Assembly: GCA_025059045.1 (NCBI GenBank)
Contig: JANXEA010000008.1
Span: 62,001-126,000 of the forward strand
Direction: 5' to 3'
From: Candidatus Bathyarchaeota archaeon
GTDB taxonomy: Archaea; Thermoproteota; Bathyarchaeia; Bathyarchaeales; DTEX01
DNA: 64,000 nucleotides
The translations under genes and the position numbers were made by a program. The notes under the pieces were generated by a model. The model had not been told where the DNA came from. It saw nothing but the letters and a program-made list of their open reading frames with translations, and did no database searches. Below are positions 22,077-57,257 of the stretch, in pieces; positions within the stretch are counted from its first letter, which is position 1; every line of letters starts with the position of its first letter.

Positions 22077-23168
22077 CTAAAGGACTTCTGCGTTAGCCAA
22101 TATTTTTTCATTAATCTCAACACCGAGCCCCGGTTCATCCGGCACTTCCATGTAACCGTCAACTATGGGCACAGGATTTTTAAGCAGTTTATCGCCTACG
22201 CGATGGTCAATATTATATATTTTTGGTAGTATCGGCAGCATGGTGTGGAAGCAACAAAGTGTAGTGTTGCAATGGTGCCTAGGGGTTGGGTTTGATGGGG
22301 CGTGCATACGCAGCCAAAGGCCTCGGCTAGAGCTGCAATCTTCTTACATGCCGAGAAGCCCCAGCCTTAATCAGATCAGGCTGAACAATGTCAACCGCTT
22401 CCTTTTCAAGCATTTCTTTGAATCTGTAGATGCTCCAGTCCTGTTCACCCCCGGCTACTGGAACATCTAAGGCCTTAGCCACCTTCGCTGTTGAATCAAT
22501 GTCGTAGTAAGGGCAGGGTTCTTCGAAGTGAAATATATCATATTTTTCCATCTTCCTTCCCAGCTGGATTGCTTTGGGCGCCGCGAAGCCTCCATTAGCA
22601 TCGACCATTATCTCGATCTCATCACCTAGTTTTTCCCGGACCTCCCTAACAACAGATTCGCTTCGGCCCGGCGCGGCATCTTTATCAAAGCCGAAGGGGT
22701 TGCCGACCTTAACCTTAACGGCTTTAAATCCTTTCTCCTCAACCACCCTCATCAGCCTCTCTGCTTCTTCCTCAGGCGTTGTATCTCTCCTCATACTGGA
22801 AGCATACATGGGGATTTTTTACGGTACGCGCCACCTAGAAGCTTATAGACAGGTACGCCGAGGGCCTTGCCGATTATGTCCCAAAGAGCTATCTCTATGC
22901 CGCTAATAGCAATGGCCTGACTTTGACCTGCGATCTTATAGGTTTTTATGAAAATCCGCTCCATGAGAGATTCTATATCGAATGGGTCACAGCCCATTAT
23001 AAACGGAACTAGAGAATGTCTGACGTGAGCCGCTATAACCTGAGTATTCATTGTGCTGCATTCGCCCCATCCGGCGATCCCCGCATCGGCATCTACGCGT
23101 AGAAGTAAGCTATTCGGTTTAACCAGATAACATCTAACATCAAAACTATTTTTAAGCAAAACACCCAC
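22077..23168 (-). pseudogene. Broken mandelate racemase/muconate lactonizing enzyme family dehydratase
   Basis: Enolase-superfamily acid-sugar dehydratase in four pieces. The N-terminal capping domain runs from 23168 to the T6 run at 22815-22820. One added base there joins GGAYRKK to IPMYASSMRR and the barrel, with VKVKVGNPFG, MVDANGG and HFEEPCPYYD. A second lesion lies at the C4 run 22359-22362; correcting it gives KAGGFSACKKIAALAEAFG and CTPHQTQPLG. A third, at the T5 run 22220-22224, leads to the ending YNIDHRVGDKLLKNPVPI. Repaired, the protein is about 365 residues, normal for the family. All three lesions look like loss of one base in a homopolymer, so either pseudogene decay or sequence error is possible. 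Confidence 0.83.
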
Positions 23169-23489: not shown

Positions 23490-24530
23490 TTATTCGCCTT
23501 TTGTTTTTGAACGCCAAAGTTTTGGATAGGTACCTCTAGGCATTATGACCCTCTCATTCTTTGCGGCTATTCCATGATCCATCTTCATGATTTCTTCACT
23601 GCTTGCCACAGCCGTGCCCAACGCTACTACCTCACCTTTCAAAGTAAAAATGGCAACTTTGCTTCCGGATAGTATGCCGTCCTCTAATGAGACAATACCC
23701 GGGGCCGCTAAATGTGCACCGTGGCATAAAGCGTCGACCGCCGAGTCTCTCACGATTATCTTAGGCAGGAGCGCCAAGGCGGTTTCCATAGGTAGTATAA
23801 AGCTCCTTAACGCTTTTTCGTCCCCCTCTTCTTTCCACTTGCTATAAAGGTAGTAAACGTCGTGAAGTGTCACGTTATGTTCATCCTCGGTGAAGGGACC
23901 GGATCTTGTCCGCCTTAGTTCTAGCATGTGGGCCCCACAGCCCAGCACGTCTCCTATGTCATGGCAGAGTTTACGTATGTATGTTCCGGCCTCGCATCCA
24001 ACCTTAAATAGGACATTTCTGCCATCAATCTCCAAGGTTTCAATATAGTATATTCTCCTAACTCTAACCCTTCTTTTCACAGAGGCGCGGACAGGAGGCT
24101 TCTGAAATATTTTACCCTGGAATTCCTCGAGAACATTTTTCACCCGTTCTTCAGGAATGTCTGAGTGAAGTCTCATCACGCAAACGTATTCTTTTCCAGA
24201 GACTAATAGGGCTTGGATTACTTTGGTCGCTTCCTCTAAGGCTATAGGCAGGACGCCAGTCACCTTGGGATATCCTTAGCCTCTAACCATATTAGAGGCT
24301 TCTAAGGTCCCGCCGTGACCAGCATGCCTAACAGACAGGATTCGTCTCACCCAAGCTGTCACTTCATGGCTTGATGGACCAGCTGGTTTGTCAAGATTCA
24401 CTATTCCAAACCTTATGAAGTCCGATGCAGGCCTCTCACAAGGTTTGCATCCATAGTTTGGATCGGTCTCAGCCTCCGACTTAATCAGAGTCTCACGCCT
24501 AACCATCCATGGCGCAACAATCTTTGTCAT
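23490..24530 (-). CDS. cbf5: Cbf5, tRNA/rRNA pseudouridine synthase (gene interrupted by an intron)
   Basis: Catalytic subunit of archaeal H/ACA ribonucleoproteins, also modifying tRNA U55. Exon 1 (24302-24530) encodes 76 residues plus one base, ending GHGGTL; exon 2 is 23490-24271. After removing 30 nt the join reads GHGGTLDPKVTGVLP, restoring the TruB-family motif with catalytic Asp77. The spliced protein is 336 residues, a normal length. Exon 2 carries the family phrases FKVGCEAGTYIRKLCHDIG, GCGAHMLELRRTRSGPF and a C-terminal PUA domain (DSAVDALCHGAHLAAPGI). Without splicing the frame stops within the intron. It lies between eL14 upstream and tRNA-Ser downstream, all on the minus strand. 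Confidence 0.95.
24272..24301 (-). other. 30-nt archaeal intron in cbf5 with bulge-helix-bulge motif
   Basis: On the transcript strand the junctions fold as a canonical bulge-helix-bulge. The outer helix is GGGA with TCCC, the central 4-bp helix CCTT with AAGG, the two 3-nt bulges are AGA and ATA, and the inner helix is AGCCTCTAA with TTAGAGGCT closed by a TATGG loop. Cutting after the second base of each bulge and ligating gives TTA GAT CCC, that is Leu-Asp-Pro, restoring the catalytic motif. The intron length is a multiple of three but holds an in-frame TAA. Introns in cbf5 are known from Crenarchaeota. Confidence 0.93.
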
Positions 24531-26914: not shown

Positions 26915-27679
26915 TTGTTGGAACTTGTTGACACCCATTCTCACCTAGAAGAAATCGAGGATCTTGACGCGGCCATAAGAAGGGCGGAGGAGGTTGGCGT
27001 TATCGCCATCTTAACTATGGGATCTGATAAAGAGACAAATATGTGGTCTCTTCATGAAGGAGTTAAGCATTGTAATATGAAGCTAAGAATCTATCCATGC
27101 ATCGGGCTTCATCCACAAAATTTGGAACCGCAAAAGGCAGAATTGGAATTAAAATTCATAGAAGACAATATCAGAAAGGCATACGCGATAGGAGAGATCG
27201 GCCTAGATTACTGGCACCCAGACATTCGTAAAAGCTCTGAAGTTACAGAATTCCAGAGACGGATCTTTAGAAGGCTTTTAAAATTATCTAAAGATAATGA
27301 TAAGCCAGTTTCGATACACAGCAGGGGAGCCTGGGCAGAAGCTTTAGAGATTACAAAAGAAGAAGGTGTGAAGAAGGCTGTCTTCCACTGGTTCAGCGGA
27401 CCACTCAATGTCCTGAAAAAACTGCTAGACGAGGGCTACTATATCTCAGCTACGCCAGCTGCGGCTTACCGCAAAGCTCATAGGACAGCAATTTCAAAGA
27501 CACCTTTGGAACAGATTCTATTAGAGACTGACTCTCCTGTTGAATATCTGGGGGAGCCGGCCGAGCCAGCACACATCACTAAAACCCTTTCCGCGGTTGC
27601 TGAGATAAAGAATGAGCAGATTACTCGGGTCGCCGAGGTTACAACAGAGAATGCGAAAAAACTTTTCAAGATTCCTTAA
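26915..27679 (+). CDS. tatD: TatD-family metal-dependent hydrolase
   Basis: Metal-dependent TIM-barrel nuclease or hydrolase of the TatD family. The metal-binding N-terminal motif DTHSHL is at residues 6-11; further ligands are in IGEIGLDYWH, SIHSRGAW and FHWFSGP. The C-terminal ETDSPVEYLG holds the last aspartate. At 254 residues it is full length. The start is TTG in a GTAGTTTG context. Its 3' end overlaps the DUF89 gene on the opposite strand by 4 bp. Confidence 0.92.
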   Translation: MLELVDTHSHLEEIEDLDAAIRRAEEVGVIAILTMGSDKETNMWSLHEGVKHCNMKLRIYPCIGLHPQNLEPQKAELELKFIEDNIRKAYAIGEIGLDYWHPDIRKSSEVTEFQRRIFRRLLKLSKDNDKPVSIHSRGAWAEALEITKEEGVKKAVFHWFSGPLNVLKKLLDEGYYISATPAAAYRKAHRTAISKTPLEQILLETDSPVEYLGEPAEPAHITKTLSAVAEIKNEQITRVAEVTTENAKKLFKIP

Positions 27680-28587
27680 TTGCCTGATCGAGCTACAAAC
27701 TTGATGACATTCCCAAGCCAAGGAACATTTAGATGCCTTGCAACCTCGATGCATTTCGCCCGAAGAAGATAAGCAATCGGCTTTGACAATATACGCTCAT
27801 TCTCAGTCAAACTCTCATAATATCCTTGACCCTTTGCGATAATAAGGTCTGCCTCCATCAAGCTGGTCAGAAATTCTTTAGAGACCATATCTAATTTTAA
27901 TCCGATATGATCATTTCCCGTCTCAATTACCTCAGCGCATTCGTCTAGGCCAACCTGCATCGCATCCTCAATTGTTGCGTCATTCAATATCGGTCCGCTT
28001 TTCACTGCCGCATACACCTTCACAGAATACCGTTCCATAATAGTTTTAATAAAGAATTTATCAAAGACTATCTCGCCCGCATTATCAAGCAAGTAAAGTA
28101 TTCTGCTTGAAGACTCTAACGCATCCATAATCTTCGGAGTATCATCTATCGCCAGATCACCGTTGAGACAGCTCAGGAGGGAAGATTCAATTGTAGCAGT
28201 CGAAACGCTGTAACCTTCAACCTCAAAGTCTATGGCGTTGCCGCAAATGCTTCCTAAAGCTGCCAGCCTAAAGCGTTCCTCATAATTCTTGCATCTGCAC
28301 CGCTGCTCCAGAACGGGTAAAATTCTCATTGCAGTTTCATTTGACATTTTCTTCAATGGTTTAAATGGGTCCGTATTCCCAGTGATCTTCTGGCATATTT
28401 TGAAGACATGGGTGTGGAAGACGGTGGGTTCGCATTCCAATAAGTCACTTTGATTATCGGCCAACCATTTGACCGTCTCAAAAATCACCTTCCGCCTAAG
28501 CGCTTCATTATCCGTAGATTTTGACGCTATGTCAAAGGCTGCTCTAACAGTGCAGGGAAAGCAAAGGAGATGCGACTTCATTCTCAT
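27676..28587 (-). CDS. DUF89/ARMT1-like metal-dependent phosphatase
   Basis: Member of the DUF89 damage-control phosphatase family, which hydrolyses unwanted sugar phosphates or damaged metabolites. The metal and substrate signature ILYLLDNAGEIVFDKFF is at the centre, with SGPILNDATIEDAMQVGL and IIAKGQGYYESL towards the end. Cysteines near the N-terminus (CFPCTVRAAF) fit the archaeal subgroup that also binds metal there. It has 303 residues, the normal length. A palindromic TTTATAAA at 28633-28640 could be its TATA box. It is convergent with tatD. Confidence 0.88.
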   Translation of the reverse strand: MRMKSHLLCFPCTVRAAFDIASKSTDNEALRRKVIFETVKWLADNQSDLLECEPTVFHTHVFKICQKITGNTDPFKPLKKMSNETAMRILPVLEQRCRCKNYEERFRLAALGSICGNAIDFEVEGYSVSTATIESSLLSCLNGDLAIDDTPKIMDALESSSRILYLLDNAGEIVFDKFFIKTIMERYSVKVYAAVKSGPILNDATIEDAMQVGLDECAEVIETGNDHIGLKLDMVSKEFLTSLMEADLIIAKGQGYYESLTENERILSKPIAYLLRAKCIEVARHLNVPWLGNVIKFVARSGN

Positions 28588-28897: not shown

Positions 28898-28975
28898 ATG
28901 AGAGCCAAGTGGAAGAAGAAACGGATGCGCCGCGAGAAGAAGAAAAGGGAGAAAAGGCGCGCAAGATACAAATAA
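28898..28975 (+). CDS. rpl41e: Ribosomal protein eL41 (L41e), 25 residues
   Basis: The smallest ribosomal protein, one very basic helix at the subunit interface. The 25-codon frame encodes MRAKWKKKRMRRE followed by an almost entirely Lys/Arg tail ending RYK, which matches archaeal and eukaryotic L41e from the first residues. It is too short for most gene callers. A TTTAAA box lies about 90 nt upstream. The EF-2 paralogue begins 71 nt downstream on the same strand, so the two may share a transcript. Confidence 0.93.
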   Translation: MRAKWKKKRMRREKKKREKRRARYK

Positions 28976-29046: not shown

Positions 29047-31227
29047 ATGTTTTCAACCAAATTCGTAGAGAACATTGCCACCACAATGAGACAAAGGGAT
29101 CGCATTAGGAACGTAGGAATAATAGCCCATATAGATCATGGCAAGACAACATTAACTGATTCCATGTTATCTGCTGTAGGTCTCCTTCCGAGAAGTGTTG
29201 CGGGAGAGGCGAAAGTCCTAGATTATCTAAGGGAGGAGCAGAGAAGAGGGATCACAATAAAGACGGCAAACATCATGCTTCCCTACAGGGGCCATCAAGG
29301 ATACTATTTGATCAATTTAGTGGACACACCGGGACACGTAGATTTCACTGGAAAAGTGGCTCGCGCATTAAGGATGATTGATGGAGCGGTCGTAGTGGTT
29401 GACGCCGTGGAGGGCATAATGGCTCAGACTGAGACCGTGATAAGGCAGGCCCTAAATGAGATGGTTAAACCTATACTTTTCATTAATAAGGTAGATAGAT
29501 TGATTCTTGAGCTAAAATTTTCCTTGAGAGAAATAGCAGATAGACTTACAACGATTATCAGCGACTTCAACAATTTGATCAGCATCTACTCTGAGCCTGA
29601 AATCAAAGATAAATGGAAAGTTAACCCTTCTAAGGGCACTGTCGCTTTCGGGTCGGCCCTCCACAAATGGGGATTAACAATCGAAGAAGCGTATAGGATC
29701 GGTGTTAGGTTCAAAGACATATTTAGTGCGTACCGAGATGAAAAGTGGCAAAATCTTGAAGATCTTCTTCCTCTTGGGAATACGATCCTGAGCATGATAA
29801 CTTCTCAGTTACCAAGCCCGTCTGAAGCACAGAAGTATAGAATTCCAAAGATATGTAAAGGAGACCCTACATCTGATGTCTATACAGCAATGTTAAACTG
29901 CGACTCAAATGGACCCTTGGTCATGGCTGTAACCAGTACCTTTTTGGACGAAGGGGACGAAATTATCACTGTAGTCAGAATCTTTTCCGGCAAAATCGTT
30001 AGGGGCGGAGAAGTCTACTTAATGAATAGTGAAAAGACATGTCGCGTACGTCAAATTTATATTCTAATGGGTTCGACCAAGGTCCCAGTCGACAGCATCG
30101 AAGCTGGAAACATCGCGGCTTTAGGGGGGATTGAAAACGCAAGAGCTGGAGAAACAATTACAGATGCGATGCATAAAAATGAGAAGTGTTATTTTTCAGA
30201 CTTTCAGCATGTTTCTGAACCAGTGATAACCATTGCGCTAGAGCCAAAAGACCCCAAAAATTTATCACATCTTATCAATTTAATGCAACGCATATGCGTT
30301 GAGGACCCTGATCTTTCAGTATCATTTAATGAGGATACAGGGGAGTATTTACTTTCGGGAATTGGAGAACTCCACCTAGAAATCGCTATCAACGCCATCA
30401 AAGAGTATGATCCAAGTCTTGAGATAATATCATCTCAACCCATAATTGCTTATAGAGAGACTGTAGGAAAAGTCGGTAAACCTGTCACCGTATTCGACCA
30501 AGATTCGGGGGTAATATGTGCCGTTCAAGTTGTACCGTTAGAAAGGGAATATTATGAGAGAGGCTCAGGTAACATTGCTATGGAAATTGTCCATAAAAAC
30601 GATTTTGAAAGGATTCTTAAAGATGATAGATCGCAGAAATTTCAGTTACCTTCCAGCATCTTGGCTTTTGAAAAGAATAATAACATCTTGATTAACATGA
30701 CCAAGAAATGCTTTATAGGAGAGGCAATCCAAGAGGAGGTAGTGCTCGGCTTCAAAATGGCATGCCAAGCTGGACCGTTATGTCACGAACCATTAAGATG
30801 CATTATTGCTAAATTAGTTGATGCACAACCTGATGGCCTGACAGTTAATACTAAATCCGGGCAAATGGCTCTAGCAATAAAAAGTGCAATCCTAAATTCT
30901 ATACTGACTGCCAATCCAGTGCTGTTGCAGCCTGTTTGCCGCCTTCAAGTATCTATACCGACAGCAATGCTCGGCAACATAACTCCTATCATAACAAGGA
31001 GAGATGGAAAGATCCTTAAAATATTACCAAGAGGTCACCTCTCAATAGTCCATGCACACTTGCCATACGCTCAAACGTTAGGTCTAGCCTCAGAGCTTAG
31101 ATCAGCCTCTTCTGGGTACGCATTTTGGCAGATCCAATTTGATCATTGGCAGAAGGTTCCAGAGACAATGATGCGTGAGACAATCGAGCAAATTCGAAAA
31201 CGTAAGGGCTTACCTCCACTTTCATAA
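29047..31227 (+). CDS. EF-2 paralogue lacking the diphthamide histidine
   Basis: Full-length (726 residues) EF-2-like GTPase. The G domain is intact: G1 AHIDHGKTTLTDSML at 28-42, switch I QRRGITIKTAN, G3 DTPGHVDF at 93-100 and NKVD at 147-150. Domains III-V follow. In domain IV, where normal archaeal EF-2 has the diphthamide loop IHRGPAQ, this protein has VNTKSGQ, so the modified His is Asn at about residue 601, and nearby residues also differ. Domain V keeps LRSASSGYAFWQIQFDHWQKVP. It is probably a second EF-2 (EF-2p), as known in some Asgard and other archaea, rather than the main translocase, but the rest of the genome is not visible. Confidence 0.9.
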   Translation: MFSTKFVENIATTMRQRDRIRNVGIIAHIDHGKTTLTDSMLSAVGLLPRSVAGEAKVLDYLREEQRRGITIKTANIMLPYRGHQGYYLINLVDTPGHVDFTGKVARALRMIDGAVVVVDAVEGIMAQTETVIRQALNEMVKPILFINKVDRLILELKFSLREIADRLTTIISDFNNLISIYSEPEIKDKWKVNPSKGTVAFGSALHKWGLTIEEAYRIGVRFKDIFSAYRDEKWQNLEDLLPLGNTILSMITSQLPSPSEAQKYRIPKICKGDPTSDVYTAMLNCDSNGPLVMAVTSTFLDEGDEIITVVRIFSGKIVRGGEVYLMNSEKTCRVRQIYILMGSTKVPVDSIEAGNIAALGGIENARAGETITDAMHKNEKCYFSDFQHVSEPVITIALEPKDPKNLSHLINLMQRICVEDPDLSVSFNEDTGEYLLSGIGELHLEIAINAIKEYDPSLEIISSQPIIAYRETVGKVGKPVTVFDQDSGVICAVQVVPLEREYYERGSGNIAMEIVHKNDFERILKDDRSQKFQLPSSILAFEKNNNILINMTKKCFIGEAIQEEVVLGFKMACQAGPLCHEPLRCIIAKLVDAQPDGLTVNTKSGQMALAIKSAILNSILTANPVLLQPVCRLQVSIPTAMLGNITPIITRRDGKILKILPRGHLSIVHAHLPYAQTLGLASELRSASSGYAFWQIQFDHWQKVPETMMRETIEQIRKRKGLPPLS

Positions 31228-31239
31228 GAAAATAAGACA

Positions 31240-32115
31240 TTAAAGTTGTGGGGCGCTTCTGCAATATGCGGTCCCATCACATACTGTGGTATTAAGTTGA
31301 GGAAAGCCCTCGCGACAAGTAGCAAATTCCAATCCATGCTTTAAGGCTAAATTTCTTAGATCAGTCAAAATCTTGAGCCTTTTATCCACCCTCAGATATT
31401 TATATCCACCAACCCATTCACCGTCAGAATAGACCTTAATCAGCCTGTCATACAGCCTCTTACATTCCATCTTCATCGAGGGTAAGAGTCCAGGAACAAC
31501 TTTCAATGTTGAACCTGTAATCTGCTTCACGCCAATCTCAGCAGCCCGTCTGACTATGGCATCGAGTTCCTTTGGGTCGTCATTTAATGTTGGAATTATA
31601 GGATCAATCCGAATCACCGCAGGCAATCCCGCTTCAACAACTTTCTCCAAAGCCCTGAATCGTGCATTAGGAGGGGGGGCATTAGGCTCTATCAATCTCG
31701 CTACATTCTCTTCCGGAGATGTTACTGTCATTGTAACCACGGTGCGGGTCATCTTAAAGAGATTTATGTCCCTTGTAACTAGATCAGACTTAGTTACTAT
31801 AAGAAGTGGGAAGCCATTCACAGCCAAAGCCTCCACACATTTCTTAGTTATCTCACATTTAGCCTCTATATGCATGTAAGGATCAGTCGAATCACTTAAC
31901 ATCACGGGATAGCGTTTTTCCGTCCCTTTTATCATCTTTAAAATAAGGTTCTTAAGTTCAAATCTAGGGATAATAGGTCCTCTGAAACTTGGAAACTTGA
32001 TTGCATAGCAGTAAACACATCGGTGCATGCACCTTCCAAGATAAGGATTGATATTATATTTCGGCAAGCATGTGCAAAAGCTGGACTTGACCACGTTAAA
32101 AACTGGCAGCCTCAT
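31240..32115 (-). CDS. Radical SAM protein, SplB-like (COG1533)
   Basis: Radical S-adenosylmethionine enzyme of the SplB-like group, related to spore photoproduct lyase. The iron-sulfur motif is CMHRCVYC with cysteines at 29, 33 and 36. The family continues with SDSTDPYMHIEAKCEIT, PLLIVTKSDLVTRDI and RIDPIIPTLND. The 291-residue length is normal. Archaeal members have no established substrate; DNA photoproduct repair is only one possibility. It is convergent with the EF-2 paralogue (12-nt gap). Confidence 0.88.
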   Translation of the reverse strand: MRLPVFNVVKSSFCTCLPKYNINPYLGRCMHRCVYCYAIKFPSFRGPIIPRFELKNLILKMIKGTEKRYPVMLSDSTDPYMHIEAKCEITKKCVEALAVNGFPLLIVTKSDLVTRDINLFKMTRTVVTMTVTSPEENVARLIEPNAPPPNARFRALEKVVEAGLPAVIRIDPIIPTLNDDPKELDAIVRRAAEIGVKQITGSTLKVVPGLLPSMKMECKRLYDRLIKVYSDGEWVGGYKYLRVDKRLKILTDLRNLALKHGLEFATCREGFPQLNTTVCDGTAYCRSAPQL

Positions 32116-46058: not shown

Positions 46059-46568
46059 TTAAACTTGCTGCCAGGGCAGCCTACCATATTTCTTTACGTA
46101 GCTGACAAGCCCGCCTTCAGAGAGTATCTGCCATAGCTCGCTTGGTATCGGCTTTATTGAATAAAGTTTATTGCTCGAAACATTTCTTAATGAGCCGCGA
46201 ACTAGATCGATTTCCAACAAATCGCCTTCATTTATCTCATTAACCTGCCGAAATTCGACTGCTGGAAGACCAATGTTTATTGCATTACGGAAAAAGATGC
46301 GCGCGAAGGATTGTGCAATAACCGCGCCTATTCCTAAATGTTTTAGAACGAGAGGTGCTTGCTCACGGCTGGATCCGCATCCGAAATTTTTGCCAGCTAC
46401 TAGGATGTCCCCCTTTTCTACTTTCTTTGCAAAGTCTGGCATTATAGCCTCCATAGCATGCCTAGAGAGCTCATCAACATCCGTTATGCTGAGCTTATAC
46501 TTTCCAGCAATTATAAGGTCGGTGTTGACGTTATCGCCGAACTTCCAAGCCTTTCCATAGATCTTCAA
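46059..46568 (-). CDS. leuD: LeuD-type 3-isopropylmalate/homoaconitate-type dehydratase small subunit (copy 1)
   Basis: Small subunit (swivelling domain) of a two-part aconitase-like isomerase. The N-terminal substrate loop after DLIIAG is KYKLSIT, unlike the KYLTTLD of the second copy. The key segment NFGCGSSREQAPLVLKHLG and the RIFFRNAINIGLP phrase are intact. At 169 residues it is full length. It overlaps leuC copy 1 by 4 bp and is the last gene of the nine-gene ilv-leu operon. Confidence 0.9.
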   Translation of the reverse strand: MKIYGKAWKFGDNVNTDLIIAGKYKLSITDVDELSRHAMEAIMPDFAKKVEKGDILVAGKNFGCGSSREQAPLVLKHLGIGAVIAQSFARIFFRNAINIGLPAVEFRQVNEINEGDLLEIDLVRGSLRNVSSNKLYSIKPIPSELWQILSEGGLVSYVKKYGRLPWQQV

Positions 46569-47836
46569 ACTCTTTCGACCCCCTTCAAGAATTTTCTCGG
46601 ATCAGTTATCACGCCTTCAATTGCTGTCGCAGCCGCAGTTGCAGGAGAGGCAAGATATATTTCCGCCTCCTGACTGCCCATTCTACCCTTGAAATTACGA
46701 TTAGACGTTGATAGACAAACTTCACCCTGAGCTAAGAGCCCCTGATGAGCCCCAGCGCAGGGCCCGCATCCAGGATTACATAATATACAACCAGAATCTA
46801 GAAAGGTTTCTATTAGACCTTCTTTCAATGCCTGGATGAAAACCCTTCTCGAAGCCGGTGCAACTATCATTCGCACACCCTTCTTTACGCTTTTTCCCTT
46901 CAAAATTTTAGCTGCAACTCTGAGATCGCTGAGACGCCCGTTTGTACATGATCCTAGAAAAACCTGATCTACCTCTTTGCCCTCCAACTCTGCAACGGGC
47001 TTTACATTGTCAACTGAATGTGGACAAGCAATTTGAGGCTCAAGCTTGGAAACATCCACCCTCAGAATATCTGAAAAAGCGGCATCCTCATCATTTCGAA
47101 TAATAGTTTTGAAGTTGCATTTGAGTGTAGTGAGAAAGTCGAATGTTTTTTCGTCAGGCTCAATAATACCTGTCTTAGCACCCATTTCGACAGCCATGTT
47201 CGTTAAGGTCAGTCTTCCTTCAATGTCCATATTCTTAACGGTTGATCCGCAAAACTCCACCGCCTTATACGTTGCTCCATCAGCTCCTATATCTCCAACA
47301 ATTTTTAGAATGATATCCTTTGGTAGGACCATTGGCGGAAGACAACCCTCGATTATGATCCTCATGGTTTCCGGAACCTTGAACCAGAGCTTTCCAGATA
47401 GAAATACTGCGGCCATCTCGGTTGATCCTATGCCGGTTGCAAAGGCGCCTAGGGCCCCATATGTACAGGTATGCGAATCTGCACCAACAATGAGATTTCC
47501 GGGAAGAATTAGACCTGACTCGACCATTAACTGGTGGCACACTCCAGACCCAGCTTCATAAAGGGGCGCCCCAAATTTTTCGGCAAATTTCCTCATTGTG
47601 CTGTGCACTTTCGAAAACGTCTCAGTGGCGCTTGGAGCAACATGATCTATAACGATAAAAATTCGATCGGGTCGCCAAAGTCTATCGCCGCCCATTTCTT
47701 GAAAGGCCTGCATGGCAAGGAGCGCTGTTCCATCATGAATCATAGCGCCGTCCACCTCTGCTACTACAATGTCTCCTGCGTATGCATCGACGCCTGAGGC
47801 TTTGCTTAGAATCTTCTCAGATATTGTCTTGCCCAT
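46565..47836 (-). CDS. leuC: LeuC-type 3-isopropylmalate dehydratase large subunit (copy 1)
   Basis: Large, iron-sulfur-containing subunit of the LeuCD isomerase. Motifs: VDHVAPSATETFSK, VGADSHTCTYGALGAFATGIG, LGSCTNGRLSDLRVA and CNPGCGPCAGAHQG, the last two bearing cluster cysteines. The 423-residue length is normal. An 87-nt tract in it (47402-47488) is almost identical to the second copy. It is followed by leuD copy 1 with a 4-bp overlap and preceded by leuA (48 nt from the leuA stop). It probably serves the leucine or citramalate branch; the substrate of each copy cannot be told apart from sequence alone. Confidence 0.91.
   Translation of the reverse strand: MGKTISEKILSKASGVDAYAGDIVVAEVDGAMIHDGTALLAMQAFQEMGGDRLWRPDRIFIVIDHVAPSATETFSKVHSTMRKFAEKFGAPLYEAGSGVCHQLMVESGLILPGNLIVGADSHTCTYGALGAFATGIGSTEMAAVFLSGKLWFKVPETMRIIIEGCLPPMVLPKDIILKIVGDIGADGATYKAVEFCGSTVKNMDIEGRLTLTNMAVEMGAKTGIIEPDEKTFDFLTTLKCNFKTIIRNDEDAAFSDILRVDVSKLEPQIACPHSVDNVKPVAELEGKEVDQVFLGSCTNGRLSDLRVAAKILKGKSVKKGVRMIVAPASRRVFIQALKEGLIETFLDSGCILCNPGCGPCAGAHQGLLAQGEVCLSTSNRNFKGRMGSQEAEIYLASPATAAATAIEGVITDPRKFLKGVERV
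47402..47488 (-). repeat. 87-bp tract shared by both leuC genes, copy A
   Basis: This tract within leuC copy 1 matches 51759-51845 in copy 2 at 86 of 87 positions, including synonymous positions. The flanking coding sequence differs clearly on both sides. It encodes the segment around GADSHTCTYGALGAFATGIG. Recent gene conversion is the simplest explanation. Confidence 0.9.
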
Positions 47837-47884
47837 TTTTAGACCTCTACCGAGACTGCTTAAGATTTTTTCCAGTCTTTAATG

Positions 47885-49387
47885 TTAAGAAGCTTGTTTC
47901 TTGCGTTTTAACAGGAGCTTGTTTATCCCGTTTATCATGGCTTCGACGCTTGCCATAACGATATCCTCCCGTGCGCCGCGCGCTGAGACGACGTTTCCAT
48001 CTCTATCTTCAACCTTTATTATTACCTCGGCTACCGCATCCGATCCCCCTGTTAATGCTTCAAGCCTATATTCTGTCAGTCTCACATTGGCTAGCTGATC
48101 CGTAATCTTTTGTATGGCTTTGATGGCTGCGTCTACAGGTCCGACGCCAGTTTCGGCGGCTACATATTCTTTTCCATCTATTAATAGTTTCACCGAAGCT
48201 GTTGGGATTACTCTTATGCCCGTAGTAACGGCAAAGTCTGTCAATTCGACGATCTTCTCTTCGGCTACCTCCCCCATAACCGTCCTAGCTATTGCGTAAA
48301 GATCGGCATCCGTCACTGTCTTTCCTTTATCGCCAAGATCCTTCACCCTATTCACTATTTCCTTTAGCTGAGCCTCAGTGGGGTAGATCCCTGCTTCTTC
48401 CAGTTCAGCTTTTATACCATGCCTACCTGATAACTTGCCTGAAAGAATTCTTCTCCGTCTGCCTACAACCTCAGGTTTAAATGGCTCGAAAGTCAGAGGC
48501 TTCACAGTAACCCCTCTGGTATGTATCCCTGACGCATGGGCGAAGGCATTTTCTCCGACAATAGCCTTATTCGGTTGGACAACGATCCCGGTTAATCTAG
48601 AGACTAGCTTTGAAGTCTGGTAGAGTAGCCTAGTGTTTATACCTGTCTTCTTTTTATATATAAGATGAAGGGCCATCACAACTTCTTCTAGGGAAGCGTT
48701 TCCAGCTCTTTCTCCTAAGCCATTTACGGCCACATGCACTTGTGATGCCCCAGCAAGGACGCCTGCCAGAGAATTAGCCACAGCCAGGCCGAAGTCGTTA
48801 TGGCAGTGAACACTTATCGGCACTTTAAGTTCTGACCTTAGATTCTTGATTAGATTCTCCATTTTCTGGGGAGCCATGATGCCGACGGTGTCAGGTATAT
48901 TTATCCTGTCAACTCCTGCTTCTTCAGCTGCTTTACACACCTTTATAAGAAAGTTAAGGTCAGATCTCGTTGCGTCCATGGGAGAAAATTCACAAAGTAC
49001 ACCATGATCCTTAATGTATTGGACGGCGCTGACGGCGGCTTCCAAAACCTTTTCAGGCGTCATGTTTAGCGCATATTTCATCTGAACCTTTGAAGTGGAA
49101 ATGAACGTATGGATGGAATTCACGTTACATGAGAGAGCTACATCGATGTCTTCTTTAAGCGCCCTTGTCAACGCGCATATCTCTGCTCTTAAGCCAGCTG
49201 CGGCGATCTCTTTAATTGCCACTTGCTCGCCGCGAGATGCTGATGGGAAACCAGCTTCGATTACGTCCACCCCAAGCTTGTCCAGTTGAACAGCTATCTC
49301 CATTTTCTCTTCGGGTGTGAAGGATACTCCAGGCGTCTGTTCGCCATCTCGAAGAGTTGTATCGAAGATTCTAACATATTCAACCAT
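47885..49387 (-). CDS. leuA: 2-isopropylmalate synthase
   Basis: First committed enzyme of leucine synthesis, condensing acetyl-CoA with 2-oxoisovalerate. TIM-barrel motifs: VRIFDTTLRDGEQTPGVSF at the start, HTFISTSKVQMKYAL, EFSPMDATRSDLNFL, NIPDTVGIMAP and SVHCHNDFGLAVANSLAG. A C-terminal LeuA regulatory domain (from about residue 385) carries the feedback site. The HTFISTS and EFSPMDATRS phrases point to isopropylmalate rather than citramalate synthase. The frame could open at GTG at 49399, but GAGGAG overlaps that codon, so the ATG at 49387 is preferred. It follows leuB by only a few bases. Confidence 0.88.
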   Translation of the reverse strand: MVEYVRIFDTTLRDGEQTPGVSFTPEEKMEIAVQLDKLGVDVIEAGFPSASRGEQVAIKEIAAAGLRAEICALTRALKEDIDVALSCNVNSIHTFISTSKVQMKYALNMTPEKVLEAAVSAVQYIKDHGVLCEFSPMDATRSDLNFLIKVCKAAEEAGVDRINIPDTVGIMAPQKMENLIKNLRSELKVPISVHCHNDFGLAVANSLAGVLAGASQVHVAVNGLGERAGNASLEEVVMALHLIYKKKTGINTRLLYQTSKLVSRLTGIVVQPNKAIVGENAFAHASGIHTRGVTVKPLTFEPFKPEVVGRRRRILSGKLSGRHGIKAELEEAGIYPTEAQLKEIVNRVKDLGDKGKTVTDADLYAIARTVMGEVAEEKIVELTDFAVTTGIRVIPTASVKLLIDGKEYVAAETGVGPVDAAIKAIQKITDQLANVRLTEYRLEALTGGSDAVAEVIIKVEDRDGNVVSARGAREDIVMASVEAMINGINKLLLKRKKQAS

Positions 49388-49402
49388 AATACTTATCACT
49401 CC

Positions 49403-50434
49403 TCAAGATTGATTGCATATTATCTCCTGTGCGATAGCTTCGCCCATCTCAATAGTCTTTAGGGTTCCGCCAAGATCAGGGATTGACAGACCTTTCTTTA
49501 AGGCTTCAACAACTCCTTTTTCTATTGCTTCAGATGCGCGTAAACATTTTGGATCGCTGTATCTTTCACCTAGCCATTCAAGCATCATCTTTGAGGCAAG
49601 TATCATGGAGCAGGGATTGGCAGTATGTTTTCCGACACGTGTAGGTGCAGATCCGTGAACGGGCTCGAAGATTGCAAAATTATCGCCAATGTTCCCTCCG
49701 GGAGCCATTCCCAAACCTCCGACCAATTGTGCCGCCTCGTCGGATAAGATGTCGCCAAAAATATTAGTCGTAACTATCACGTCGTAATTTTGAGGCTCCT
49801 TAATAAGTCTCATAGAGATAGCGTCGACGTACTGTTCCTCATATGTCACATCAGGGTACTGCTTGGCAATTTCCCGACAGATACTAGCAAATAGGCCGCA
49901 TGTAACACGTAAAACATTTGCCTTGTGGACCGATGTCACTTTTTTCTTCCCATTTCTTCTCCTTGCCAGCTCAAACGCCATCCTTGCAATTCGCTCGCAA
50001 CCTTTCCTAGAAACAACCCTTAGGGCAACCGCCGTATCATTAATCATGAATTCGTACCCCTTATAAAGATCCTCCGTATTTTCCCTAACGATTACAAGGT
50101 CTATGTCACTTCTGAGACAAGGAACATTTGGATATGACTTTATGGGGCGTATGTTCGCATATAGGTCAAACAATATTCTTAGCTTAACGATAACGTCGGC
50201 CGCGGTCTCACCAACTGGCCCCTTGAGACATGCATGAGAATTTTTTATTGCCTCGATTGTCTCGGGAGGAAGGGCAACACCTCTCTTCTGGTAGCAGGTG
50301 TCTCCGGCCTCAAGTTCAAGAAAGGAGAATGCAAGACCAAATTTTCTTTGAATGGCACTTAGAACGTTCATTGTTGCTTCTGTCAGCTCAGGTCCGATTC
50401 CATCCCCAGGAATAACCGCGACGTTGTATTTCAA
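49403..50434 (-). CDS. leuB: 3-isopropylmalate dehydrogenase
   Basis: NAD-dependent beta-decarboxylating dehydrogenase. Motifs: VAVIPGDGIGPELTEATMNV at the start, VIVRENTEDLYKGYEF, the substrate-metal segment TTNIFGDILSDEAAQLVGGLG and the nucleotide site FEPVHGSAPTRVGKHTANP. At 343 residues it is full length. Archaeal enzymes of this group may also act on related substrates, but its position between leuD and leuA makes leucine synthesis the clear role. The start is TTG, overlapping leuD copy 2 by 4 bp, with GGAAAAGG upstream. Confidence 0.9.
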   Translation of the reverse strand: MKYNVAVIPGDGIGPELTEATMNVLSAIQRKFGLAFSFLELEAGDTCYQKRGVALPPETIEAIKNSHACLKGPVGETAADVIVKLRILFDLYANIRPIKSYPNVPCLRSDIDLVIVRENTEDLYKGYEFMINDTAVALRVVSRKGCERIARMAFELARRRNGKKKVTSVHKANVLRVTCGLFASICREIAKQYPDVTYEEQYVDAISMRLIKEPQNYDVIVTTNIFGDILSDEAAQLVGGLGMAPGGNIGDNFAIFEPVHGSAPTRVGKHTANPCSMILASKMMLEWLGERYSDPKCLRASEAIEKGVVEALKKGLSIPDLGGTLKTIEMGEAIAQEIICNQS

Positions 50435-50946
50435 CCTTTTCCGCCCATCCTCTTTTTTAAATGCTCAATTAACCCACCATCACTGAGAATCTGGAGAATG
50501 AAGTCTGGGAGCGGGATTGCCGTGAAAGTTTCGTTCTTCGACCTATTGATGATCCTTCCATCCTCTAGATAGACCTCCAATATGTCTCCGTCATCAATAT
50601 GTCCAGATATGCCTTGGCATTCAAGAACTGGCAAGCCAATATTAATTGCGTTGCGATAGAAAATACGTGCAAAAGAGTCCGCTATCACGCATCTTACACC
50701 AGCATACTTGAGCGCAATTGGAGCTTGTTCGCGGCTGGACCCGCATCCAAAGTTCCTTCCAGCAACCAAAATTACTCCTTTCTCAGCTTTTTTCGCAAAG
50801 TCTCTATCCAACCCTTCCATTGCATGACTAGCTAGCTCCATAGGATCAAGAGTGGTCAAGTATTTACTTGGAATGATTAAGTCGGTATTCACATTGTCTC
50901 CGTATACGATGGCTAAGCCTTGAATCCTCAATATTTTGCCTCCCAA
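50431..50946 (-). CDS. leuD: LeuD-type dehydratase small subunit (copy 2)
   Basis: Second LeuD copy, 171 residues. The N-terminal substrate loop after DLIIPS is KYLTTLD, a YLxT-type loop seen in some homoaconitase-like or broad-specificity small subunits. The core NFGCGSSREQAPIALKYAG and the ARIFYRNAINIGLP phrase are intact. It overlaps leuC copy 2 by 19 bp and leuB by 4 bp, so translation is coupled. The loop difference from copy 1 suggests that the two LeuCD pairs prefer different substrates, for example isopropylmalate and citramalate. Confidence 0.9.
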   Translation of the reverse strand: MGGKILRIQGLAIVYGDNVNTDLIIPSKYLTTLDPMELASHAMEGLDRDFAKKAEKGVILVAGRNFGCGSSREQAPIALKYAGVRCVIADSFARIFYRNAINIGLPVLECQGISGHIDDGDILEVYLEDGRIINRSKNETFTAIPLPDFILQILSDGGLIEHLKKRMGGKG

Positions 50947-52196
50947 AAATCTCTCGGATCGATTATTTTTCCAGCAATTGCTGAAGCAGCCACGGTTGCA
51001 GGTGAGGCTAAGTATATCTTGGCGTCTGGGCTACCCATTCTACCAACAAAATTTCGATTGGAAGTGCTTATGCACACCTCACCGTTTGCCAGGAGCCCCA
51101 TGTGACCGCCAAAGCATGCACCGCAGGTTGGACTGGTTATATAGGCTCCAGCCTTTACCATGGTCTCGAGAATGCCCCACTGTAATGCATGCATGTAGAC
51201 TTCTTGTGAGGCTGGAGTTATGATCAACCTTACCCCCCTGCTAACCTTCCTACCCTTAAGAATTTCCGCAGCGATCTCTAGATCTTCAAGTCTCCCATTA
51301 GTGCAAGACCCGATAAATGCTTGATCTATCTCAACTCCTTCAACTTCCCTAACCTTTTTAACATTATCAACGGAATGGGGGCAGGCTATCTGCGGCTCCA
51401 GATCATCAACATCCATCTCAATTTTCTTCTCATATTTTGCGTCTGAGTCACTACCAAGAATCATGAAGGATTTATCAGTTCGAGCTTCAACATAGGCGAA
51501 GGTAGTCTCGTCAGGTTCTATTATCCCAGTTTTTGCTCCCATTTCGACGGTCATGTTGCACAGAGTCATCCGGCCGCCGACACTCATAGAGGTTATTGTA
51601 GGTCCTGCAAACTCTATCGCCTTATAAATTGCCCCGTCTGACCCAAGATTGCCCACTAGATGTAGTATCAGATCCTTCGGTGTTACGAATCTCTTAAAGC
51701 GCCCTTTCACATTTATTCTAATGGATGATGGTACTCTCAACCATAATTTGCCAGTAGCAAATACTGCGGCCATCTCGGTTGATCCTATGCCGGTTGCAAA
51801 GGCGCCTAAGGCCCCATATGTACAGGTATGCGAATCTGCACCAACTATTAATTCGCCGGGTCTCACATGCCCTTTCTCAACCATGACTTGGTGGCAAATG
51901 CCCCCAAAGCCTACATCATAGAGAAAGGGGAGCCCCTGCTCTTTAGCGAATTCTCTCATGATCTTATGCAGTTCAGCAGATTTTGTTGTGTCAGCTGGAA
52001 CCTGATGATCTAGAACCATTACTATCTTCTCTTTATCCCAAACTTTTTTGACTCCTATTTTTCTGAAAGCTTGAATTGCAAGTGGTCCTGTTATGTCGTT
52101 GACCATAGCCATGTCGACTTTTGCCTCTACTATTTCTCCTGGCTTAACTTGGTCCTTGCCAGATGCAGCTGCGAGGATCTTTTCGCTGATGTTCAT
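50928..52196 (-). CDS. leuC: LeuC-type 3-isopropylmalate dehydratase large subunit (copy 2)
   Basis: Second LeuC copy, 422 residues, paired with leuD copy 2. Motifs: LDHQVPADTTKSAELHK, GADSHTCTYGALGAFATGIG, GSCTNGRLEDLEIA and SPTCGACFGGHMG. The cluster cysteine environment TCGAC differs from GCGPC in copy 1. It follows ilvC by 23 nt. It shares an 87-nt tract with copy 1 at 51759-51845, far more similar than the rest of the two genes. Confidence 0.91.
   Translation of the reverse strand: MNISEKILAAASGKDQVKPGEIVEAKVDMAMVNDITGPLAIQAFRKIGVKKVWDKEKIVMVLDHQVPADTTKSAELHKIMREFAKEQGLPFLYDVGFGGICHQVMVEKGHVRPGELIVGADSHTCTYGALGAFATGIGSTEMAAVFATGKLWLRVPSSIRINVKGRFKRFVTPKDLILHLVGNLGSDGAIYKAIEFAGPTITSMSVGGRMTLCNMTVEMGAKTGIIEPDETTFAYVEARTDKSFMILGSDSDAKYEKKIEMDVDDLEPQIACPHSVDNVKKVREVEGVEIDQAFIGSCTNGRLEDLEIAAEILKGRKVSRGVRLIITPASQEVYMHALQWGILETMVKAGAYITSPTCGACFGGHMGLLANGEVCISTSNRNFVGRMGSPDAKIYLASPATVAASAIAGKIIDPRDFWEAKY
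51759..51845 (-). repeat. 87-bp tract shared by both leuC genes, copy B
   Basis: Matches 47402-47488 with a single mismatch (A for G at the 51st base of the tract on the plus strand). The two leuC genes are only moderately similar outside it. See the copy A entry. Confidence 0.9.
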
Positions 52197-55706: not shown

Positions 55707-57257
55707 CTAGCGTGATCTTGCTGTTTTTTCGTGATTTGTTATAAGTACGTTCATCCCACTAATCATGGCTTCAACGCTTGCCATGACGATATCCCCGTGC
55801 GCACCCATCGCTGTCGCAACCCTGTCACCCTTCCTAAGTCTGACAATTACTTCAACCATGGCGTCTGTACCCCCTGTTATGGCTTTAACATGATACTCTT
55901 CTAAGCGTATCGGCTCAACAGCTGAAACCGCCTTCCTTATCGCGTTAATTGCAGCGTCTACGGGACCGATCCCTGTCGCAGCTTCTGTCAAGATCTTCCC
56001 GTTAAGGTTTAGTCTAACCGAAGCCGTGGGGGTAACGTGATCTCCAGTTACAACTGTCAATTCTTCTAGTTTTATCGCTCGGATTTTTGGAAGCCCCATT
56101 ACTGTCTCCGCTATGGTCTGCAGGTCTGCGTCTGTAACTCTTTTGCCTTTGTCCCCAAGCTCTTTAACTCTGAGCATGATCTCTCTTAACTGCTCACCTG
56201 TCGGATTGATGCCCATCTCTTTCAGGGCAGCTTCGATTCCTCCTGAGCCCGCATGTTTTCCAACCGCGATTCTTCTTGTTCGCCCAACCAGCTGTGGCGG
56301 TATAGGTTCATACGTCGATGGTTCAGTCAATATGGCTTTTGCATGAATACCAGATTCATGGACAAACGCATTTTCACCTACAATCGCTTTATTCGGCTGG
56401 ACTGGGATGCCTGTCAAACGTGAAACTAGCAATGAAAGATCATACAGTTTCTCAGTTATGATTCCTGTTTCCACGTTGTAGAGAAGCTTCAGTGATACTG
56501 CTATCTCTTCTAAAGCCGCATTCCCCGCCCTTTCCCCAAGACCATTGACAGTGACGTGAACCTCGTCCGCTCCGGCTCTTAGGGCAGCTATGGAGTTTGC
56601 AACGGCCATGCCGAAGTCATCATGGCAATGTACTCCTATTGGAACCTTCGGAAATGCCTTCCTAAGATCTGAATATAATTCATAAGCTCTTTCTGGAGTA
56701 AGGATTCCAACTGTATCACATGGGGTTACCCTATCTGCTCCTGCAGAGATACCTGTCTCTATTAGGCTCTTTAGGAAGTCAGGGTCGCTTCTGGTCGCAT
56801 CTTCTGCGCCGAGCTCTACAATCAGGCCATGATTCTTAGCATACTGGACGCATTCCTCTGTAAGTTTAAGTATGTCGCTTCTTGTCTTCTTCAACTTATA
56901 ATTAATGTGAAGATCTGATGATGGAACTACAAGGAAGACCGAGGTCGCATCGCATTTTAGGACGATGTCGATGTCATCTTTTACCGCTCTTGCAAAGCTA
57001 CAGACTTCAGCCCTCATACCTTCCTTAGCTATTAGTCTGATCGCCTCTCTTTCACCCTCTGAGGACGCTGCAAAACCTGCTTCTATAATATCTACACCTA
57101 GCTCATCGAGCTTCTTTGCTATAAGAAGTTTCTTTTCAGGGGTCAGAGAGACTCCAGGTGTCTGTTCACCATCTCTTAGAGTGGTATCAAAAATTAAGAT
57201 CCTTTCTGCGAAGTTACTCGATAAAGCGATACCCCATTTCAGTGAACCTCGGATCAT
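55707..57257 (-). CDS. cimA: Citramalate synthase (LeuA family)
   Basis: Condenses acetyl-CoA with pyruvate to make (R)-citramalate for isoleucine. Barrel motifs: IFDTTLRDGEQTPGVSLTPE, CDTVGILTPERAYELY, GVHCHDDFGMAVANSI and VNGLGERAGNAALEEIA. The VVPSSDLHINYKLKK and VELGAEDATRSD phrases resemble archaeal CimA rather than isopropylmalate synthase (compare EFSPMDATRS in the other copy). It has 516 residues, with a C-terminal LeuA regulatory domain. It starts close to a TATA box at 57275-57282 shared with the divergent ilvD, which suggests an almost leaderless transcript. Confidence 0.82.
   Translation of the reverse strand: MIRGSLKWGIALSSNFAERILIFDTTLRDGEQTPGVSLTPEKKLLIAKKLDELGVDIIEAGFAASSEGEREAIRLIAKEGMRAEVCSFARAVKDDIDIVLKCDATSVFLVVPSSDLHINYKLKKTRSDILKLTEECVQYAKNHGLIVELGAEDATRSDPDFLKSLIETGISAGADRVTPCDTVGILTPERAYELYSDLRKAFPKVPIGVHCHDDFGMAVANSIAALRAGADEVHVTVNGLGERAGNAALEEIAVSLKLLYNVETGIITEKLYDLSLLVSRLTGIPVQPNKAIVGENAFVHESGIHAKAILTEPSTYEPIPPQLVGRTRRIAVGKHAGSGGIEAALKEMGINPTGEQLREIMLRVKELGDKGKRVTDADLQTIAETVMGLPKIRAIKLEELTVVTGDHVTPTASVRLNLNGKILTEAATGIGPVDAAINAIRKAVSAVEPIRLEEYHVKAITGGTDAMVEVIVRLRKGDRVATAMGAHGDIVMASVEAMISGMNVLITNHEKTARSR

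Follow-up and report, generated by a model that had tools for sequence, protein, structure and literature searches.

The EF-2 gene at 29047 to 31227 of the window, by which we mean the whole 64,000-nucleotide stretch analysed here, is the resident EF-2 of its genome at the ancestral locus and not an added copy. It has lost the diphthamide loop, and the same genome carries a second, intact EF-2 on another contig. We call the resident gene type B and the second gene type A. Judging from the sequences, we think it very probable that type A displaced type B and that the window gene is now a GTPase with a role other than translocation. The whole explanation, in which the displaced gene serves as a ribosome GTPase that probably acts on the 50S subunit or on idle ribosomes, is in our opinion the likelier answer rather than a settled one. 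The gene and its main landmarks are these.

29047 to 31227, plus strand: EF-2 homologue of the resident type (B), an ORF of 726 aa, diphthamide loop lost
29125 to 29148, plus strand: G1/P-loop AHIDHGKT, intact, residue 27
30496 to 30513, plus strand: domain IV tip loop 1, DQDSGV replacing SPNKHN, its histidine lost
30829 to 30864, plus strand: domain IV diphthamide loop, PDGLTVNTKSGQ replacing LHEDPVHRGPAQ
30847 to 30849, plus strand: AAT codon of Asn601, in the column of the diphthamide histidine

Pfam matches all five EF-G/EF-2 domains in the order G, II, III, IV, V, and every G motif is intact (AHIDHGKT at residue 27, DTPGH at 93, NKVD at 147, GSALH at 202), so this is the architecture of a translational GTPase of the EF-G/EF-2 kind. 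The earlier note on this DNA was right that the GTPase domain is intact and that histidine has become asparagine at residue 601. Archaeal aEF-2 (TIGR00490) shares the five domains, but it carries the diphthamide histidine of the HRGPAQ loop and both other tip histidines, and the window protein scores 682.4 bits against that equivalog, below the curated cut-off of 738.45. The column of Asn601 holds histidine in every sequence compared: 20 from the phylum, 24 from other archaea and 43 of type A. The change goes beyond one substitution. Among the 156 positions fixed in 133 control EF-2s, 12 of the 22 in domain IV are altered, all three tip histidines among them, against 17 of the 134 elsewhere in the gene (Fisher p = 4e-5); by domain the window gene keeps 93% of these residues in G, 77% in II, 86% in III, 46% in IV and 79% in V. 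An AlphaFold2 model has the EF-2 fold (mean pLDDT 80, pTM 0.72), with low confidence at residues 505-516, 527-534 and 598-601. Its best PDB matches are archaeal EF-2s, including an H595N mutant that shares the substitution of the window gene by chance.

The genome belongs to Bathyarchaeia, measures 1.42 Mb and is 98% complete. Its contig 5 carries a second EF-2 that is 41% identical to the window gene and has an intact loop, DPVHRGPAQ. The genome also has homologues of Dph2, Dph5 and Dph6 (PF01866, PF01902, TIGR00522), and Dph2 was detected in 153 of the 163 genomes of the order. The lineage is thus not diphthamide-free. The second EF-2 keeps every canonical feature of the family and is 81% identical to the EF-2 of a Candidatus Bathyarchaeota record. 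Type A genes form one clade, marked by the signature MTWRPI in 44 of 44 sequences, and sit on a long branch in our trees.

The earlier note had found that the window gene fits a paralogue of the EF-2p type known from some Asgard and other archaea, and had proposed looking through the genome for another EF-2 and for dph genes; both are there, against its alternative of a diphthamide-free lineage in which this gene would be the main EF-2. The existence of a pair is borne out. The EF-2p assignment is not, because EF-2p goes with loss of diphthamide synthesis, as described in PMC10307638 after Narrowe et al. 2018. According to that account, degraded second EF-2s without the residues that diphthamide needs were already known in archaea lacking dph genes, and in this respect EF-2p resembles the window gene; here the dph genes are present and the degraded copy is the gene at the resident locus. 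In a phylogeny without full-length Asgard EF-2p, the window gene falls inside the Bathyarchaeia type B clade. A C-terminal fragment from Thorarchaeota (L307), possibly EF-2p, keeps the histidine (HNDPAHTGYNE) and has a sequence unlike the window gene.

The argument that the degraded copy is the resident one comes from its neighbours, three of which we named by sequence recognition and not by family search.

26915 to 27679, plus strand: TatD-like hydrolase (named by recognition), a neighbour also kept in genera g3 and g5
27676 to 28587, minus strand: DUF89-like protein (named by recognition), the upstream neighbour kept in g2 and g3
28898 to 28975, plus strand: eL41 (MRAKWKKKRMRREKKKREKRRARYK), followed by a 71-nt gap before EF-2
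31240 to 32115, minus strand: radical-SAM-like protein (named by recognition), convergent and downstream of EF-2

The earlier note had already placed eL41 71 nt upstream on the same strand. We number the families of the order f1, f3 and so on, and the genera of family f1 likewise. The order eL41, EF-2, radical-SAM, with DUF89 or TatD, is common to the genera of f1 whose type B loop is intact (g2, g5) and to those that have lost it (g1, which is the window, and g3). More widely, eL41 also lies 5' of intact type B genes in f1, f3 and f8, and the radical-SAM-like gene is the convergent downstream neighbour of type B in f1, f3, f4, f7 and f8. The sister genera of f1 carry a single, fully canonical EF-2 at the locus of the window gene. 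This shared synteny puts the degraded copy in the ancestral place of EF-2 and leaves the intact one as the other gene. The idea that the window gene is an unusual extra copy therefore fails, since it is the orthologue of the one canonical EF-2 of its sister genera; of the pair, type A is the unusual and divergent EF-2. We also note that in genus g3 a Dph6-type gene lies two genes from the loop-less EF-2, adjoining DUF89 (L042 5654-7794, L043 4910-7047 and other loci), and that the Dph6 homologue of the window genome is on a different contig from the window EF-2.

A few other features of the window deserve mention. A cbf5-like gene (23490-24530, minus strand) is split near 24264-24300: roughly 30 nt (AGCCTCTAATATGGTTAGAGGCTAAGGATA), with a perfect 8-bp hairpin, interrupt the frame precisely at the GTL-DPK catalytic motif. 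From its sequence the insert resembles the small BHB-type introns in the mRNA of crenarchaeal cbf5. The branched-chain amino-acid cluster on the minus strand (46059-52196) has two complete LeuC/LeuD-like pairs as well as two genes like 2-isopropylmalate/citramalate synthase (47885-49399 and 55707-57257). A short ORF of 160 aa (22327-22809, minus strand) resembles enolase-superfamily proteins of the mandelate racemase type and is possibly a truncated gene.

We surveyed EF-2 in 163 genomes of the order, 189 of the class and a phylum sample of 397. At the thresholds used, genomes of the class and phylum sample outside the order have one ordinary EF-2 each. Type A was not found outside the order in the phylum sample, where all other matches are at most 53% identical. 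Within the order it occurs in most sampled genera of f5, in part of f1 and in a few genomes of f4 and f6. Type B is about 56% like the EF-2 of other Thermoproteota and is the sole EF-2 in most families of the order; the best relatives of the window gene, itself of type B, reach 51%. Several genera, and a single genome of f4, have the two types side by side and divergently oriented. Living members of the order form a series: type B alone and intact, type A with an intact-loop B (the two often neighbours in divergent orientation), type A with a degraded B, and type A alone. Two further observations concern unusual EF-2s in the survey. The only EF-2s seen in three genomes of f17 (G191, G193, G194; L206, L188, L190) and in G199 (L196) keep the histidine with altered neighbours, VHTGPAQ or VHYGPGQ replacing VHRGPAQ. 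Two EF-2s of class-mates (L203 in G182, L204 in G174) have the P-loop interrupted by some 600 aa resembling an intein (HVDHGK / C...HN / TTMSD), and similarly long EF-2 frames occur in G165, G169 and G172.

Loss of the loop goes with the presence of type A. We could read the type B gene and score type A in 96 genomes of the order. Where type A is absent all 39 type B loops are intact, each reading LHEDPVHRGPAQ[IV]M; where it is present 46 of 57 are degraded and 11 intact (Fisher p = 4e-17, a value uncorrected for relatedness, and the association clusters on the tree). Of the loops still intact beside type A, several have already changed: HHGPAQ, HRNPAQ, LHGDPAH, LHKDQVH and IHENPVH. The 96 exclude six g3 genomes that have lost the loop and have no visible type A. 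It might be argued that the loop-less gene is the sole EF-2 of these six, but in g3 type A adjoins uS19 and ArgS; four of the six lack ArgS as well and the contig of G133 stops inside it, which makes an assembly gap the more likely explanation, except in G129.

How many times the loop was lost depends on the tree model. Simpler models unite the loop-lost genes of f1 and f5, and two changes may then suffice. With domain IV left out, a mixture-model tree splits them, and constraining all f1 genes together raised the likelihood (p-AU 0.61). Together with the synteny, the mixture-model tree favours at least two origins of the loss, one in f1 and one in f5, and the sequences of G101 and G081 suggest further losses inside f5. 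There may instead have been a single origin followed by transfer to f1. The simpler trees speak for this, as do several derived G-domain residues common to both families, and the mixture-model topology and likelihood speak against it. The derived residues M40L, A61V, V128I, V130A and H695R are found in both f1 and f5 and appear stepwise among the f5 grades; they may reflect convergence or transfer.

What was lost is the tip of domain IV. In 50 loop-lost type B sequences the invariant residues are kept at 97% in G, 78% in II, 93% in III, 50% in IV and 93% in V. The three histidines of the tip vanish as a set: retention is 6% for H492, the one in SPNKHN, 14% for H600 and 0% for H605. The loop-lost groups have a shorter domain IV, down from a median of 154 residues to 130-137. 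No common replacement motif was found among the loop-lost genes, whose loops vary from lineage to lineage. The domain IV tip and domain II of EF-2 face the small subunit and the decoding site, and the G domain and domain V face the factor site of the large subunit. The loss of the tip with G, III and V retained would predict a factor-site GTPase that no longer moves tRNA and mRNA.

We believe the history was as follows. Type B would be the EF-2 with which this Bathyarchaeia lineage began, passed on vertically and unmoved from its ancestral locus. Type A, with all the canonical features, would have become the main translocase and presumably the sole one. Type B, freed from translocation, would have shed those segments of domain IV which extend to the decoding site: the SPNKHN loop and the two histidines in HEDPVHRGPAQ, and diphthamide with them. 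The GTPase domain would remain, along with domains III and V, on the side of the protein turned towards the large subunit and its factor-binding site. Type B would then act on 50S subunits or idle ribosomes as a ribosome-dependent GTPase and not as a tRNA-mRNA translocase.

It could be argued that type B has no distinct function at all, and is a redundant translocase decaying slowly since the arrival of type A left its tip unconstrained. The long branches of the loop-lost genes fit this idea, as does a dN/dS above that of type A in the same pair of genomes (0.169 against 0.067 in G130/G131). About 11 of 60 near-complete genomes with type A lack type B by hand count, which implies that some lineages either do without its job or leave it to type A. 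However, the other 49 or so keep it, and dN/dS between loop-lost relatives is 0.06-0.19 across deep divergence, so these genes are selected and not debris (the window gene has no congener for the comparison). The uneven retention of the domains also argues against decay, as do new residues fixed across many species: R616G and R617K in f5, and M40L, V130A and H695R in f1 and f5. We consider slow decay unlikely for the group, though the window copy itself, to judge from its very long branch (0.99 in the mixture-model tree), may be decaying.

A second objection is that type B is still a translocase, specialised for stress, starvation or antibiotic-bound ribosomes like bacterial EF-G2 or the tetracycline ribosomal-protection proteins, in which the domain IV tip is remodelled. 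The five-domain architecture is retained, and EF-G2 and tetracycline-protection models of the same superfamily do match, weakly and below cut-off. Loops that differ by lineage and a shortened domain IV suit a lost contact better than a new, defined one, and we regard this scenario as quite unlikely. That the gene is the EF-2p, or the main EF-2, of a diphthamide-free lineage has the missing histidine in its favour, but we reject it as highly improbable given an intact EF-2 with dph homologues in the same genome, Dph2 across the order, and the resident-locus synteny.

The most specific job we can propose for the displaced gene is the release of aIF6, split from translocation, which would make it an analogue of EFL1 confined to this lineage. 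Sulfolobus aEF-2 frees aIF6 from the 50S subunit by its GTPase action, neither tRNA nor mRNA taking part, and EFL1 is reported absent from archaea (PMC8024482). On present analysis this assignment is tentative and less likely than not, and recycling or hibernation roles on the 50S subunit are near alternatives.

EFL1, which frees eIF6 from the 60S subunit, is the obvious comparison. To our knowledge EFL1/Ria1 and Snu114 are EF-2 paralogues of eukaryotes without diphthamide, and both families match the window protein by sequence. However, the solved EFL1 is 1120 aa long, and the 726-aa window protein is colinear with aEF-2 without the size and large insertion of EFL1. It is also far nearer to archaeal EF-2 than to EFL1 (632 against 265 bits), and has a separate and recent archaeal origin. 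As far as we know, mitochondrial EF-G1 and EF-G2 likewise divide a duplicated translocase into a translocation and a non-translocation job, but they belong to the bacterial EF-G family and work with RRF, which we believe is absent from archaea. A wider claim is speculative, and we find it rather doubtful: that within one order takeover by type A repeatedly allowed the original EF-2 to specialise as a 50S GTPase free of diphthamide, so that archaea would have invented the EFL1 arrangement on their own, with its intermediates still living.

EF-2 is among the most conserved archaeal proteins. In a limited literature search we found no report of two EF-2s in Bathyarchaeota, although Narrowe et al. 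2018 may mention them, and none of a lineage that has dph genes and whose resident EF-2 has degenerated alongside a second one. Until now the one tie between diphthamide and EF-2 duplication was the loss of the dph pathway. In this case the pathway persists and it is the displaced copy alone that has dropped the site, which makes the duplication of EF-2 and the loss of dph separable. The natural series within this order would allow the functions of EF-2 that need the domain IV tip and diphthamide to be distinguished from those that need the GTPase and its contacts with the large subunit.
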